Positions 1-5,919 of a stretch of 42,314 nucleotides of DNA are shown piece after piece (the stretch's first letter is position 1; each line of letters begins with the position of its first letter). The notes under the pieces are model-generated. The model was not told the origin of the DNA and ran no database searches. It saw only the letters and a list, made by a program, of their open reading frames with translations. Origin of the DNA: Chitinophaga pinensis. GTDB taxonomy: Bacteria; Bacteroidota; Bacteroidia; AKYH767-A; OLB10. Both the position numbers and the translations under genes were made by a program. The DNA lies in assembly GCA_943332105.1 (NCBI GenBank), contig CALQOD010000012.1, positions 1 to 42,314 of the forward strand. Direction: 5' to 3'.

Positions 1-215
1 AGTTAGCGAACAAGCGTGTATTCCCTGCAATTGACTTAGTTGCTTCAAGTACAAGAAGAGATGATTTATTATTAGACCGTGAGATGTTACAGAAGATGTG
101 GATTTTAAGAAATCACTTAGCGGATATGAATCCAATTGAAGCGATGGATTTCCTACTCGACCGTATGCGTGGTACTAAATCGAATGAAGAGTTTTTAGTC
201 TCGATGAATTCGTAA
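1..215 (+). CDS. rho: Transcription termination factor Rho, C-terminal end (5' partial)
   Basis: The reading frame enters from the left edge (first whole codon at base 3) and stops with TAA at 213-215, giving 70 residues. The segments FPAIDLVASSTRRDDLLL and MDFLLDRMRGTKSNEEFL are the typical end of the RecA-like ATPase domain of Rho, the hexameric RNA helicase that ends transcription of untranslated RNA. The ATP-binding loops and RNA-binding domain lie outside the window. It is followed by a hairpin with a T-run at 236-263 and converges on the FISUMP gene block. Identification rests on recognising the family's C-terminal sequence and is secure despite the truncation. Confidence 0.93.
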   Translation, partial: LANKRVFPAIDLVASSTRRDDLLLDREMLQKMWILRNHLADMNPIEAMDFLLDRMRGTKSNEEFLVSMNS

Positions 216-235
216 TTGAATTTGAATAATAAAAG

Positions 236-263
236 AAAAGGCTGTCGTGAGATGGCCTTTTTT
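236..263. terminator. Intrinsic terminator between rho and the FISUMP block, probably bidirectional
   Basis: The arms AAAAGGCTGTC (236-246) and GATGGCCTTTT (251-261) pair around a GTGA loop, with two G-T wobbles, and six T follow on the plus strand. On the minus strand the same stem is followed by a T-rich stretch, so it can also end the transcript of the convergent FISUMP genes. Confidence 0.75.
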
Positions 264-283
264 GTTTAAAAAATACTGATGAT

Positions 284-1069
284 TTAATTCTTTAAGCAGC
301 GAACGGAGAACCCGAAATATTTTATAGAAGTAGCTCGTATAAAGTTAGTATCGCTATAATACAAACAACGTTTATAAGCATCTGTAATTGAACTTTGTGA
401 AGATGTCCACCAAAAACCGTATTCACCAATGCCACTATAACCACCAAAATCGTAACGATAACCTCCTGGCAAACCAGTAAAGGTGCTTGTGTTGGATGCA
501 CCTGTATTTGGCATAGCCCAATGAGCCAAACCAATTTCTTTAAGAGCTCCTCCAGCAATTATACTTTGAACACAATTTATGCAGGTAGTATCCGAGTTTG
601 TATCAATTACTTTTACTAAAATATTCCATTCGGAATCATCAGGAACATGCCAACCAACAGGACAAAGCCCTTGAGTATTCGCTACTGCGTAGCCATTATA
701 TAGTCTACCATAAACTGAAGCACTACTTGAATCATCGTTATAATCAGCACAAGCGCCGAGAAAATTAGGCCATTGGGCAGGACTTAAATTATTGGGTATT
801 GAAGTTCCATTTCGATAGTGTAATGTTTTTAAATTTTCTTTCATCCAACATTGAGAACCTATCTCAACAGTGTTATAAATATTACCATCGATATCTGCAA
901 CCGTTGAAGGGCAAACATTGGAATCCAATGTATAATTAATACTATCGATATCCGAAATAGGTATGGATAATAAACTACCATTTATGTATTGTATATTTAA
1001 ATGCTTTTGAGCATATGAAATGTCCAATAAGAAACATATCGATATTATTAAAAGTAGATATTTTTTCAT
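284..1069 (-). CDS. Secreted FISUMP-domain protein, paralogue 1
   Basis: 261 residues. A signal peptide (MKKYLLLIISICFLLDISYA) is followed by Gln. Residues about 24-46 form a short module (NGSLLSIPISDIDSINY) shared with the neighbouring genes. From about residue 53 to the end runs the FISUMP domain (Fibrobacter succinogenes major paralogous domain): CPSTVADIDGNIYNTVEIG, QCWMKENLK, LCPVGWHVP, LPGGYRYDFGGY and the terminal FSVRCLKN. Conserved cysteines at the VCP, QCW, ACADY, LCPVGWH and VRC positions suggest disulfides in an extracytoplasmic protein. The biochemical role of FISUMP domains is not established. It has no T9SS sorting domain and no lipobox. It is the last of five closely spaced minus-strand genes and lies 23 bp after the next FISUMP gene. 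Confidence 0.85.
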   Translation of the reverse strand: MKKYLLLIISICFLLDISYAQKHLNIQYINGSLLSIPISDIDSINYTLDSNVCPSTVADIDGNIYNTVEIGSQCWMKENLKTLHYRNGTSIPNNLSPAQWPNFLGACADYNDDSSSASVYGRLYNGYAVANTQGLCPVGWHVPDDSEWNILVKVIDTNSDTTCINCVQSIIAGGALKEIGLAHWAMPNTGASNTSTFTGLPGGYRYDFGGYSGIGEYGFWWTSSQSSITDAYKRCLYYSDTNFIRATSIKYFGFSVRCLKN

Positions 1070-1092
1070 TGATTAGTTTTTATACAATTAAA

Positions 1093-1869
1093 TTAATCTT
1101 TAACACAACGAACAGAATATCCATTGTTCTTCGCCCCTAAATATTTATTAATTCCGCTGAGATTATAACCTATATGGAGATTTATCGCAACAGTGGATGA
1201 AACCGAAAATGCTGTCCACCAATATCCAGCAACACTTATATTACTAAAACCTTGTCCGGTATGAAAACCACCAGGAAGGGCAGTAAAATCAACACTATTA
1301 TTTGCTCCTACATTAGGAGTTCCCCAATGTGCAGTACCGCTTTCCTTCAAAAAGCCGCCTGCTGACGAACTAGATATACATTGAGTACAATTAGTATCAG
1401 CGTTAGCGTCAATAAATTTCAACAATTCATTCCACTCCCATTTTTCTGATTCGTGCCAGCCGACAGGACATAATTCAGATGTATCTGCCAAAGCATACCA
1501 ATTATATAATTTGCCATATACTGAAGAATTTGCGGTGTCATTGTTATAGTCAGCGCATGATCCACTTGTTGTAGAATTCCATTGCGACCAACTTAGATTA
1601 GTTGGGATTACAGTGCCATCATTATAATGTGCTGTTCGCAAATTCTCTTTCATCCAACAAACTTCATTTATTTTAACAACATTGTAAACATTACCATCAA
1701 CATCTGTTACTGTTACGGGACAAGTATTACCATTAATATAATACAAAGTGTCAATATCAGAAATTGGAATAGACAACATACTTCCATTCGTATAATAAAT
1801 GTTCATTTTCGTTTGGGCCATCAAGTTATTTACCTGGAACAAAAAGAAGAAGAGAATTATTTTTTTCAT
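1093..1869 (-). CDS. Secreted FISUMP-domain protein, paralogue 2
   Basis: 258 residues from the chosen start. An in-frame ATG lies six codons upstream (1887), but the ATG at 1869 opens directly into a clean signal peptide (MKKIILFFFLFQVNNLMA, then Gln), so I use it. After the peptide comes the shared module NGSMLSIPISDIDTLYY, then a FISUMP domain with CPVTVTDVDGNVYNVV, VCWMKENLR, LCPVGWH, FTALPGGFHTG and the terminal SVRCVKD. The module and domain boundaries match those of the adjacent paralogues, so local gene duplication is the simplest origin. Neither a T9SS sorting domain nor a lipobox is present. It sits 24 bp downstream of paralogue 3 and 23 bp upstream of paralogue 1, probably in one transcript. 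Function unknown. Confidence 0.85.
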   Translation of the reverse strand: MKKIILFFFLFQVNNLMAQTKMNIYYTNGSMLSIPISDIDTLYYINGNTCPVTVTDVDGNVYNVVKINEVCWMKENLRTAHYNDGTVIPTNLSWSQWNSTTSGSCADYNNDTANSSVYGKLYNWYALADTSELCPVGWHESEKWEWNELLKFIDANADTNCTQCISSSSAGGFLKESGTAHWGTPNVGANNSVDFTALPGGFHTGQGFSNISVAGYWWTAFSVSSTVAINLHIGYNLSGINKYLGAKNNGYSVRCVKD

Positions 1870-1893
1870 ATTAATACAGATTATCATCTAATT

Positions 1894-2691
1894 TCAATCC
1901 TTCACACAGCGAACGGACATACCTGTCCGAATATGATGATTTGTTTCACTAAGCATATTCCAACTATGCTCTATGATTATTGAATAACTATTTGCTGAAT
2001 TTTTATATGTAGATGTCCAAAACTCTCCACGATATTTTATATCCCAATAAGTTCCATCGAAATTAGCACGCATTCCTCCCGGCAGAGCAGTAAATCCAGA
2101 ACTATTGGTAACAACTGACATTGGAATACCTGGAGGAAGCCAATGAGAAAAACCTACTTCCTTTAATGATATTCCTAAAACCGGACTCACCATACTGATG
2201 AGCTCCATCGTATCAGACATCGGATCAAGGTACGCTTCTAAACGCTTCCAATCGGAACGCGAAGAAGGATGCCAACCAACGGGACATAATCCTGAAGTAT
2301 CACTTACTGCATACCAATTGTATAATTTACCGTATACAGCTGTATTAGTTGGATTATTATCACAATCGGCACAAGCAGCACTTAGCGAATTTGTCCATTG
2401 CGCATTAGTCAGCGTACTTGGAATTGCAACTCCATTTTTAAAATGAGTAGTTTTTAAATTTTCTTTTAACCAGCATTGATCACCAATTGCAATCACATTG
2501 TATGAATTGCCATCGACATCTGTGACTGTATTAGGACAAACAACTGAATGAATAGTATAATTAATACTATCTATTGAATTTTGAAGATAATGTTGCGGAC
2601 CAATTCCTTTGAATACAATATTCGTTAATGATTGAGCCATTATGAAGTGAGTCATTAAAACGAAAACGCTCAATAAACATTTTATTTTCAT
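1894..2691 (-). CDS. Secreted FISUMP-domain protein, paralogue 3
   Basis: 265 residues. Signal peptide MKIKCLLSVFVLMTHFIMA followed by Gln. The N-terminal module is the most divergent of the four (about GIGPQHYLQNSIDSINYT) but keeps the IDSI core. The FISUMP domain shows CPNTVTDVDGNSYNVIAIG, QCWLKENLKTTHF, LCPVGWHPS, FTALPGGMRANF, EFWTST and SVRCVKD. The stretch between WHPS and the LPGG motif is longer and more hydrophobic than in its neighbours. It lies 12 bp after paralogue 4 and 24 bp before paralogue 2, consistent with an operon. No other domain is seen; ligand and function are unknown. Confidence 0.84.
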   Translation of the reverse strand: MKIKCLLSVFVLMTHFIMAQSLTNIVFKGIGPQHYLQNSIDSINYTIHSVVCPNTVTDVDGNSYNVIAIGDQCWLKENLKTTHFKNGVAIPSTLTNAQWTNSLSAACADCDNNPTNTAVYGKLYNWYAVSDTSGLCPVGWHPSSRSDWKRLEAYLDPMSDTMELISMVSPVLGISLKEVGFSHWLPPGIPMSVVTNSSGFTALPGGMRANFDGTYWDIKYRGEFWTSTYKNSANSYSIIIEHSWNMLSETNHHIRTGMSVRCVKD

Positions 2692-2703
2692 ATCTACGTA
2701 TCA

Positions 2704-3510
2704 TTAATTTTTTACACAACGAATGGAATAACCTGCGTTATAATCATAAGTATTCCACATAACAATCGTTGACTTATTATAATAAAGTTCTTTGTAATAT
2801 CCACCATCATAAGGATCAAGTGTCGATGTCCAGAAATTTCCGTAATTATTTAATCCACTATAATATCCGATATTATTTCTAATCCCACCTGGCAATGCAG
2901 AAAAATTCCAATAATTAGTAGCACCTACATTAGGACTTGCCCAATGTGAAATACCTGCTTCTTTAATACCAGATGCTATCAAAGATCCATAATCACCCGT
3001 TCTGTTTGAAACATCTGGAAAAGTATCAATATAGCTATAAAGAATTCCCCAATCAGCATTTGAAGGAACATGCCAGCCAACAGGGCATAAATTCAATGAA
3101 TAAGCAGCATAACCATTATATAGTCTGCCATAAATGAGCACCAGGGTAGAATCATTATTATATTCTGCGCATGCAGGATAGGAAGCATTTCCCCATGCTG
3201 TATTTGTTAATCCTGATGATATAGGTGTACCATTATTATTATGCTTGGTTCGTAAATTTTCCTTCATCCAACACTGTGAACCAATTTGAACAACATTATA
3301 AATATTTCCATCCGTATCATTCACTGTTGCAGGACAAATAGCTTGATTTACATTATACGTGATTGTATCAATTGCATTAATTGGATATTGAACAGCAGGT
3401 CTATTATTGAAATAAACGTTCATAGTGGTATAGGTGTTCGTGAACGTTTGAGCATGCACACTAATACCACTCATTACAACAATTAAAAACAATAATATTT
3501 TATTTTTCAT
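2704..3510 (-). CDS. Secreted FISUMP-domain protein, paralogue 4
   Basis: 268 residues. Signal peptide ending SVHA, then Gln. Module MNVYFNNRPAVQYPINAIDT is followed by a FISUMP domain: CPATVNDTDGNIYNVVQIG, QCWMKENLRTKH, LCPVGWHVPSNADW, FSALPGGIRNNIGY, NFWTST and YSIRCVKN. It is the first FISUMP gene in transcription order, starting 18 bp after the stop of the small T9SS protein. The four paralogues keep the same order of conserved blocks while the loops vary, which suits surface proteins under diversification, but I have no functional evidence. It lacks the T9SS C-terminal domain carried by its upstream neighbour. Confidence 0.85.
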   Translation of the reverse strand: MKNKILLFLIVVMSGISVHAQTFTNTYTTMNVYFNNRPAVQYPINAIDTITYNVNQAICPATVNDTDGNIYNVVQIGSQCWMKENLRTKHNNNGTPISSGLTNTAWGNASYPACAEYNNDSTLVLIYGRLYNGYAAYSLNLCPVGWHVPSNADWGILYSYIDTFPDVSNRTGDYGSLIASGIKEAGISHWASPNVGATNYWNFSALPGGIRNNIGYYSGLNNYGNFWTSTLDPYDGGYYKELYYNKSTIVMWNTYDYNAGYSIRCVKN

Positions 3511-3528
3511 AACAATGTTTATAAAGTA

Positions 3529-4032
3529 TTACTGTATCACCACCTTCTTACTAATAATCTGCTGCTCCGTTGATAGTTTAATCAGATACAAACCTTTTGC
3601 AGTTGCATGCCATTGTTGCGTATAGCTCCCTGAATCTTGCTCCCCTATTTTTCGCTGATCAATTAATTGTCCTTTTAAATCGTAAATGGCTAACTCCAGC
3701 TTTTGATGAACTGGTAAGGTGTACTTTATTTGAACATCACCGTTAGAAGGATTTGGAGAAACCTCCATGCCAATTGCAATATTCGGAACCTCTGAAAGTG
3801 CTGTGATATATGGCAAATATTTATAGCTGATGATTGCCGTAGTATTCCAGCTTACAAGCGTACCATTGGTTAAGTGCATTTGCATATCCGTACTTGAAAA
3901 ATCGATATGCTGCACATCGATTAAAGGATATTGCCCATTGGTACCATTGGTAAAATTAAAATAAATGGACTGTGCGCTTGCATTTAATGAGCATGATGCT
4001 ATTACGATAAATAGCCATACAATTTTCTTCAT
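3529..4032 (-). CDS. Small secreted protein with T9SS type A sorting domain
   Basis: 167 residues. Signal peptide (ending LNASA, then Gln), then two short related segments at about 22-46 (IYFNFTNGTNGQYPLIDVQH) and 49-73 (MQMHLTNGTLVSWNTTAIIS) that resemble the module in front of the FISUMP domains. Residues about 90-167 form a T9SS type A C-terminal sorting domain: VSPNPSNGDVQIKY, AIYDLKGQLI, GLYLIKLST, KKVVIQ. The family is exported through the outer membrane by the type IX system, which usually removes this domain. The gene heads the five-gene FISUMP run and has a consensus promoter at 4050-4080. It could be a surface partner for the FISUMP proteins; that is inference. Confidence 0.82.
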   Translation of the reverse strand: MKKIVWLFIVIASCSLNASAQSIYFNFTNGTNGQYPLIDVQHIDFSSTDMQMHLTNGTLVSWNTTAIISYKYLPYITALSEVPNIAIGMEVSPNPSNGDVQIKYTLPVHQKLELAIYDLKGQLIDQRKIGEQDSGSYTQQWHATAKGLYLIKLSTEQQIISKKVVIQ

Positions 4033-4049
4033 AAACTATAATTTATATT

Positions 4050-4080
4050 CAAATATAAAATAAATACTTCAAATGCCAAA
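4050..4080 (-). promoter_or_regulatory. Consensus Bacteroidota promoter for the T9SS/FISUMP operon
   Basis: On the minus strand TTTG (4080-4077) is followed by exactly 19 bases and TATATTTG (4057-4050), an exact match to the TTTG-N19-TAnnTTTG pattern of the Bacteroidota primary sigma factor. It ends 17 bases before the ATG at 4032. It lies in the largest gap of the block, so the five genes to 284 probably form one unit. Confidence 0.8.
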
Positions 4081-4092
4081 TAAAAATTATAT

Positions 4093-5919
4093 CTAAGGAT
4101 TCACTACCAGTGCTTCCGATATGAATTTTGATCCATCAGCAACTGTTACCCGATAAAATCCTGCAACTAATCCTTGTATTACAATTTCATCATCAGAAAC
4201 AGCAATTAAACTACACAACACCTCTCTACCGCCAACGTCCACCACACGAATTATTTTATCCTGCCCCCATTCACCTTGTAATTTCATGTTCACAGCATTT
4301 GTTGCGGGATTAGGATACAATATAATTTTATTCTCCATTGTAATTTTTTCTGCTCTACAAGGAACACTCACTGTAATCGTATTAGACCATTTAGAACACC
4401 CGAAAGAATTTGTAGCTACACAACGATATAACCCTGCCAAAGTAGCTGAAAATTGTGATGATGTGCCACCAGAAATAGCAACATTATTCTTACGCCAATT
4501 ATATGTCAACCCACTACCTGTATTTACATTCAGTAAAACAGAACCACCTGCACAAAACGATGTTGCGCCTGCAGCAGTAATTATGGCACTTGGCTTTGGA
4601 TTAACTGTAACTGGTACAGCAGAAGATTGTTTGGAACATCCATACTGGTTTGTAACTACTACCCTATAATTTCCAGATAACTTTAGATAACAATTAGAAT
4701 TTGTTGCTCCTAAAATATTATTGTAAAAGCGTTGCCACTGATAAGTCAATCCACTGCCCGTATTAGCCGCTAACCCAACACTATCACCATCACAAACAGT
4801 TGTAGCAGTAATTGGAGTAATAACAGCAGATGGCTTATATCGTTGAGTAACTGTTAACGTATTTGATGTTGCACTGCAGGAAGAACCATTCGTTGCTAAA
4901 ACAGAATACGACCCACTTGCTTTTGCATAGTAATTTAAATTTGAAACATTGCTGATCAGCACTCCATTATTGCTCCATTGATATTGAAGTCCACCCGTAG
5001 GTGTCGATGCGATTAAATTTAAACTATCACCACTACAAAAATTTGCACTGGCCGCAGTTAGGGTAATGGTAGGACTTGTTATAAAATTTATTGTATCTAC
5101 TACTGTATTTCTGGAAGCACAGGCATTCGATATATTACAATAATAACGATAGGTTGCTGCATTGTTGTATCCAGGCATACTCAAAGTGTTTGACGAAGAA
5201 GTACTAATCAAAACAGGACTTCCTAAAGATGTCAAATAATACCATTTATAACTTGCTCCAGCATAAGCAGGAACAGACAATGTGAATGGCGTACTTACGC
5301 ATACGTTAGAACCCACCGAAGAAGCAATATTCACTACAGAAGGTATAGCAGATGAGACATAAGCCATATACAATCCATACGTATTTGTGTCGGCCCCACA
5401 AGAATTACCAACCCAACAATTATAATGTCCGCCAACAGTAGCAGCATAATTAGGCGTTGTTGCTCCAGGAATAATTTGTCCGTTTAATGTCCATTGAAAG
5501 GAAGAAAAATAAATGCCATTGGTATTCACAAATAAATTATTTACTCCACATGCAGAAGCTGGCGACTGATATTGCCATAAATATTGTCCATTCCACGCCT
5601 GACTAACCATTATACTATTAGTATTAAAAGTGCCATTTGCATCAGTAATCTGACAAAAATAATTTCCACTATAATATGCATCAAAAGTATTAGTAGAAGT
5701 TCCGGGAAATTGATTTAAATTGCCATAAACATCATAAAAATACCATGTGTAGTTTAATGCATTTGCTGGATTAACAACTAATGTTACGAAAGGGTGTGTT
5801 TGACACAAATTCGTAGAACTCGTTGCTGTAAGTGTAGCTGATTTTGCATAAAAACTTAATGAAACAAAAGCAGTTAAGAATGAGATTGATTTAAGATGAT
5901 ATAGATTAAAAAATTTCAT
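4093..5919 (-). CDS. Secreted multi-domain Ig-like/PKD-like protein with T9SS sorting domain
   Basis: 608 residues. N-terminal signal peptide (hydrophobic core SISFLTAFVSLSFYA). The middle is built of tandem beta-sandwich-like units of about 75-85 residues. The clearest three (about 280-520) each contain FCSGDSLNL / VCDGDSVGL / FCAGGSVLL, then LQYQWSNN / LTYQWQRF / LTYNWRKN, then GSYSVLATN / GNYRVVVTN / GLYRCVATN. This is the Ig-like pattern common in Bacteroidota surface proteins. Residues about 530-608 are a T9SS type A sorting domain (ILYPNPATNAVNMKL, VVDVGGREVL, GFYRVTVADG). It lies 60 bp upstream of the FISUMP operon promoter and 58 bp after mpl. Probable surface adhesin or structural protein; ligand unknown. 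Unlike its neighbours, its signal peptide is not followed by Gln. Confidence 0.83.
   Translation of the reverse strand: MKFFNLYHLKSISFLTAFVSLSFYAKSATLTATSSTNLCQTHPFVTLVVNPANALNYTWYFYDVYGNLNQFPGTSTNTFDAYYSGNYFCQITDANGTFNTNSIMVSQAWNGQYLWQYQSPASACGVNNLFVNTNGIYFSSFQWTLNGQIIPGATTPNYAATVGGHYNCWVGNSCGADTNTYGLYMAYVSSAIPSVVNIASSVGSNVCVSTPFTLSVPAYAGASYKWYYLTSLGSPVLISTSSSNTLSMPGYNNAATYRYYCNISNACASRNTVVDTINFITSPTITLTAASANFCSGDSLNLIASTPTGGLQYQWSNNGVLISNVSNLNYYAKASGSYSVLATNGSSCSATSNTLTVTQRYKPSAVITPITATTVCDGDSVGLAANTGSGLTYQWQRFYNNILGATNSNCYLKLSGNYRVVVTNQYGCSKQSSAVPVTVNPKPSAIITAAGATSFCAGGSVLLNVNTGSGLTYNWRKNNVAISGGTSSQFSATLAGLYRCVATNSFGCSKWSNTITVSVPCRAEKITMENKIILYPNPATNAVNMKLQGEWGQDKIIRVVDVGGREVLCSLIAVSDDEIVIQGLVAGFYRVTVADGSKFISEALVVNP

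Follow-up and report, generated by a model that had tools for sequence, protein, structure and literature searches.

In the window, which is the whole of contig C12 (42,314 nucleotides) from a Bacteroidota genome of 2.77 Mb in 147 contigs, four FISUMP genes follow a small gene for a T9SS protein, here called T. The locus raises the question of how FISUMP proteins that lack a sorting domain of their own could be placed at the cell surface. The reading favored here, with a probability of roughly 60%, is that T is a carrier or anchor bearing a C-terminal sorting domain (CTD), that it places the CTD-less FISUMP proteins (its clients) at the surface, and that a short shared module is the contact between them.

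The array and the shared module

The tandem array described in the initial annotation is real. Its four FISUMP genes are minus-strand ORFs (Table 1), and the encoded proteins all score above the curated cut-offs of PF09603 (123-142 bits, cut-off 33.9; E 4e-41 to 2e-35) and TIGR02145 (102-106 bits, cut-off 41.65). These paralogues are only 41-51% identical to each other. As had been claimed, neither a T9SS domain nor a lipobox is present in any of the four. The small T9SS protein was also correctly placed at the head of the array. It matches TIGR04183/PF18962 at residues 91-167 of 167, with a TIGR04183 score of 52.9-55.1 bits against a cut-off of 23, as is found for type A cargo. SprA (2623 bits) and a PorU-like sortase (1288 bits) are encoded in the same genome, along with more than 100 other CTD proteins. 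There is no barrel gene in the cassette and the CTD of T fits the type A model, so this is not a pair of a type B CTD protein with PorP/SprF.

Table 1. Features of the array in the window, with positions on the contig
Feature	Position	Strand	Basis or remark
F1, FISUMP client, 261 aa	284..1069	-	ORF + PF09603/TIGR02145
F2, FISUMP client	1093..1887	-	likelier start 1869 (MKKIILFF)
F3, FISUMP client with degenerate module, 265 aa	1894..2691	-	
F4, FISUMP client with diverged module, 268 aa	2704..3510	-	
T, 167 aa: signal peptide, two modules, type A sorting domain; candidate carrier/anchor	3529..4032	-	
T module copy 1 (about residues 22-46)	3895..3966	-	E 1.1e-10, within seed
T module copy 2 (about residues 50-74)	3811..3885	-	E 4.3e-11, within seed
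Type A C-terminal sorting domain (CTD) of T	3532..3762	-	TIGR04183
F4 module MNVYFNNRPAVQYPINAIDTITY	3349..3423	-	module profile
F3 degenerate module NIVFKGIGPQHYLQNSIDSINY	2551..2625	-	module profile
F2 module MNIYYTNGSMLSIPISDIDTLYY	1732..1806	-	module profile
F1 module LNIQYINGSLLSIPISDIDSINY	929..1000	-	module profile
Region of highest variability in the FISUMP domain (F1 residues 211-250), immediately ahead of the conserved GFSVRC end	320..439	-	
Bacteroidota-type promoter TTTG-19 bp-TATATTTG, upstream of T	4050..4080	-	
Ig_7/T9SS protein upstream of T; flank, outside the cassette (retained in cassette-less G003)	4093..5919	-	

The order of transcription is promoter, T, F4, F3, F2 and F1, with intergenic gaps of 6-23 bp. 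The proposal of one promoter for the whole array holds, because TAnnTTTG occurs just once, at 4050-4057, when the minus strand of positions 1-4200 is scanned. It has a TTTG 19 bp upstream.

The motif NGxxxxPISxID[S/T]I had been assigned to all four FISUMP proteins. It is present in F1 and F2 (F2 reads IDTL), but F4 and F3 have diverged, F3 especially, and have NNRPAVQYPINAIDTI and GIGPQHYLQNSIDSI at the motif site, respectively. Only ID-S/T and the flanking strands are common to the four modules. T does contain related segments, in the form of two module copies followed by the CTD. The module is 24 residues long, is hairpin-like, and is uncovered by any Pfam or NCBIfam domain. An HMM built from FISUMP modules alone recovers both T copies in register, and the score of the better copy is reached by 132 of 20,000 shuffles. 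The 41 T proteins collected in the survey below match the client-module HMM above shuffles (p = 4e-22). A profile-profile comparison of T with double-module clients gave a probability of 96.9 and E = 1.3e-10 over 59 columns. Structure prediction was less informative. The AlphaFold model of T has a pLDDT of about 33 over the module (alignment of 3 T rows), and that of F1 has 61 overall and is poor over the module (alignment of 16 F rows). Foldseek with the F1 model gave no usable match, and no PDB entry was matched when the sequence of the T module was searched.

Neighbors of T in the Bacteroidia

A full-length T profile was searched in 395 Bacteroidia genomes. T was found in 30 of these, from 14 families (31 genomes if a contig-end fragment in G194 is counted), although the seeds of the profile all adjoined FISUMP clients, and T-like proteins with other neighbors may therefore be under-represented. 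The window's T is itself a seed sequence (E 8.8e-69). The full-length group consists of proteins of about 165-200 aa, nearly all of which outscore the matches to the CTD only (E up to 5e-25, compared with 5.9e-23 and above). A diverged T in G162 (E 1.8e-19) scores among the CTD-only matches.

The neighborhoods of 41 T genes were inspected; some of the genomes are incomplete, contig ends hide partners, and two of the genes are at contig ends. At all 39 loci with downstream sequence, the first gene for a secreted protein that follows T on its strand starts with the module. This includes 26 of 26 such loci known from the T profile only, where the next secreted protein bears the module and is CTD-less. 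The automatic start finder scored 37 of the 39 clients, and L177 and L226 were read by eye. No CTD was found in the 37 tabulated clients or in the FISUMP proteins of the window. As a control, the gene next to generic T9SS genes was inspected, and it carried the module in 0 of 50 cases; the only flagged case was the gene just upstream of the window's T. The gap between T and client is mostly 168 bp or less, and is 275 bp in L227. In three genomes from the same family, T and client are separated by one small unrelated gene encoding 117-128 aa (L224, 4247-4633; L231, 5163-5516; L233, 2429-2782). It resembles the 23S rRNA intervening-sequence four-helix family. At L127 (G025, 4711-5154) there is an in-frame TAG within the CTD of T with an intact client, which is either a broken gene or an assembly error.

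The clients mostly have FISUMP domains. There are also FGE-sulfatase-like clients (L226 and L234, E about 1e-51), a YceI-like client (L238), a Lcl_C-like client under the domain cut-off (L235), and a client with Fn3-like domains (L212). Client L225 and its relative L360 have no known domain beyond the module. YceI is a different family, and therefore the module is not restricted to a single fold. Several clients per single T are also found in G125 and G089. In G125, one T is followed by about seven double-module FISUMP genes, several of them fragmented (L358, contig C11, 1188-18497), like a birth-and-death family.

It had also been considered that the module could be a generic leader, found before many unrelated domains and not accompanied by T. 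The module is indeed found ahead of a number of different domains, yet with T adjoining it. The initial annotation had proposed a search with the module alone, and this was done with a 24-column profile in the same 395 genomes. At E < 1e-3 there were matches in 27 genomes, 26 of which are among the 31 that have T (Fisher p about 1e-34); this overlap is partly circular, since the seeds were mostly T-linked clients, which the profile is bound to recover. What is informative is the near absence of matches beyond the T-positive genomes. Matches at E 0.001-0.05 were ignored, being at about the chance level for 395 genomes. A generic leader is rejected, as the module-only matches in the 395 genomes are confined to T-positive ones, with the exception of G103.

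FISUMP proteins of the wider set can be divided into unmixed classes that have a lipobox, a CTD of their own, or the module. Among those with enough upstream sequence, neither the lipobox proteins (18) nor the own-CTD proteins (11) have a module or an adjacent T. The genome of the window has 15 good FISUMP domains, and those checked outside the array are in lipoproteins or in parts of larger proteins, without the module. Outside the window's genus, T adjoins 11 of 13 module-FISUMP genes, the exceptions being L164 and L165. In a second set of 80 FISUMP loci, T was found in none and module-FISUMP in five, with four of the five belonging to the window's genus. In G066 (L164), G106 (L165), G005 contig 173 (L089) and G103 (L357), a module-FISUMP gene has no T beside it, which counts against T being the carrier. 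The one in G005 (L089, 994-1800) stands alone in a genome that has T on another contig, and is a possible client in trans. In L179 (3994-5310), L162, L264, L319 and L223 (5595-6914), a single ORF encodes a FISUMP domain at the C-terminus, preceded by a CTD-like domain in mid-protein and by a further segment at the N-terminus. It is odd for a CTD not to be C-terminal, and in these ORFs carrier and client may have become fused.

T could also be a periplasmic secretion chaperone, plug or regulator that later leaves as a T9SS substrate, with the clients remaining in the periplasm. Chaperone genes often come first and adjoin their client gene, as T does. A CTD would be unusual on a periplasmic chaperone, and related FISUMP proteins of this genome are lipoproteins, which makes this role very improbable. 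In G296 the gene order is FISUMP, T, FISUMP (L170, 4089-6900), and therefore T need not come first in the cassette.

Divergence of the cassette

Within the genus, G007 has T and six FISUMP genes and G005 has T and two. In G008, T is at the end of one contig, and a different contig contains at least four FISUMP genes. Those cassettes that are assembled all lie between two genes that we take, from their sequences, to be rho and mpl. In the congener G003, mpl, the Ig_7/T9SS gene and rho are adjacent, with no T and no FISUMP gene between them; therefore, the cassette was gained or lost as a unit. No cassette was seen in G006, where mpl is at a contig end.

The mature N-terminus of T is near-identical in four species, although 25-91% of synonymous sites differ. 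The dN/dS of the T module could be computed for four pairs, where it is 0.004-0.045 with pS of 0.25-0.69; the other two pairs are saturated at synonymous sites. In the same four pairs it is lower than that of the CTD of T and of the flanking mpl. The DNA of F3 is 99.7% identical between the window's genome (G000) and G007, compared with 94.5% for mpl and 89.8% for T. This appears to be a sign of recent transfer or of gene conversion inside the array. The F3 gene has been kept despite its degenerate module, which counts against the carrier reading.

Distances between T modules are correlated with those between client modules (Mantel r = 0.71, 0 of 5000 permutations), and the cognate pairing of T and client beats the swapped one in 8 of 9 within-genome tests. 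This correlated divergence fits specific pairing, but also follows from co-inheritance in one operon. T and its clients could then merely be co-regulated, having arisen from a duplicated small beta-hairpin leader and acting independently without contact, for example as two surface or periplasmic binding proteins. Homologous modules, a common promoter and co-inheritance would all be accounted for in this way. This explanation is nevertheless considered quite unlikely, because T is almost only module and CTD, and the module is its most constrained part. In addition, client domains have been exchanged while the module and T persist, and FISUMP proteins with a targeting signal of their own are without the module.

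A candidate carrier for surface proteins

If T is a carrier or anchor, it would be exported by Sec to the periplasm, and its CTD would then direct it to the cell surface by way of the SprA/PorV translocon. At the surface, PorU normally cleaves type A cargo and anchors it. The clients, with a predicted Sec signal and neither CTD nor lipobox, would pair by their N-terminal module with the homologous module or modules of T. T would then bring them out in trans, or would hold them at the surface once they are out. One T would serve several clients (four in the window; six, two and at least four in the congeners), and a single conserved carrier would let the cell display a set of diverged, C-type-lectin-like binding domains. 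The clients would have to share or compete for T, and the ratio of one T to four clients counts against this reading.

The suggestion in the initial annotation that T serves the FISUMP proteins through the shared module has strong comparative support in the linkage at 39 of 39 loci, as against 0 of 50 in the control. Physical binding of T and client, export of the clients, the direction of dependence, the choice of export in trans over anchoring only, and ligand binding by FISUMP are inferred. The CTD of type A cargo binds loops of PorV in the SprA pore, and the cargo exits sideways with PorV (PMC10994853). Folded proteins are moved by the T9SS (PMC9251779). Because of these two properties, a non-covalent complex of T and client formed in the periplasm could possibly leave by the CTD of T. 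It is tentatively proposed, at somewhat short of even odds, that there is T9SS export in trans, in which a small dedicated carrier, built from a paired recognition module plus a CTD, would export and display module-bearing, CTD-less clients, and that one carrier may serve a diversifying lectin-fold array.

T could instead be an anchor only. The clients would cross the outer membrane by other means, or be released, and T fixed at the surface would capture them by the module without being needed for export. The linkage of T and client applies here equally, and T is normal type A cargo. This is rather unlikely, as the clients have no recognized outer-membrane export signal and a second route must be assumed.

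The proposed carrier can be compared with known systems. T resembles T9SS type A cargo in its Sec signal, its CTD above the TIGR04183 cut-off, and the presence of SprA and PorU in the genome. Known cargo bears its own CTD, whereas here the putative functional domains belong to other proteins, which are CTD-less. Type B CTD substrates and their PorP/SprF shuttles (PMC9143113, PMC12618676) are similar in that T9SS cargo has a dedicated partner, encoded in genetic linkage with it, that determines where the cargo is placed; in that system the cargo bears a type B CTD and its partner is a barrel of the outer membrane, whereas T has a type A CTD and its clients have none. Hitchhiker or piggyback transport, known from Tat and peroxisomes (PMC9251779), likewise has one signal-bearing subunit with a signal-less partner. 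No description of two-part, CTD-less-substrate or piggyback/hitchhiker T9SS export was found in the open-access literature; elsewhere one is possible.

The client domains themselves have a parallel. FISUMP (Fib_succ_major), FGE-sulfatase and DUF1566 (Lcl_C) are reported as domain types of the variable proteins of diversity-generating retroelements and are linked to the C-type lectin fold, and retroelement-driven variation acts near the C-terminus in these related domains (PMC4159848). The same three types are found among the clients. In FISUMP, too, variation peaks close to the C-terminus, where column entropy is 1.9-2.4 bits at F1 residues 211-250, compared with 0.4-1.4 in conserved blocks. 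The window's genome differs in having no reverse transcriptase, and its diversity comes from tandem paralogues and recombination. A diversity-generating retroelement was ruled out as the source of FISUMP diversity, with no PF00078 match genome-wide.

Lists of T9SS substrates are built on the CTD, and would miss proteins that are exported or held by a separate CTD-bearing carrier. The module is a sequence handle for finding such carrier-dependent proteins, and the modular pair of T and client can be tested as a display tool. If true, the carrier reading would explain how a lectin-like surface set could be expanded without a sorting domain for each gene.
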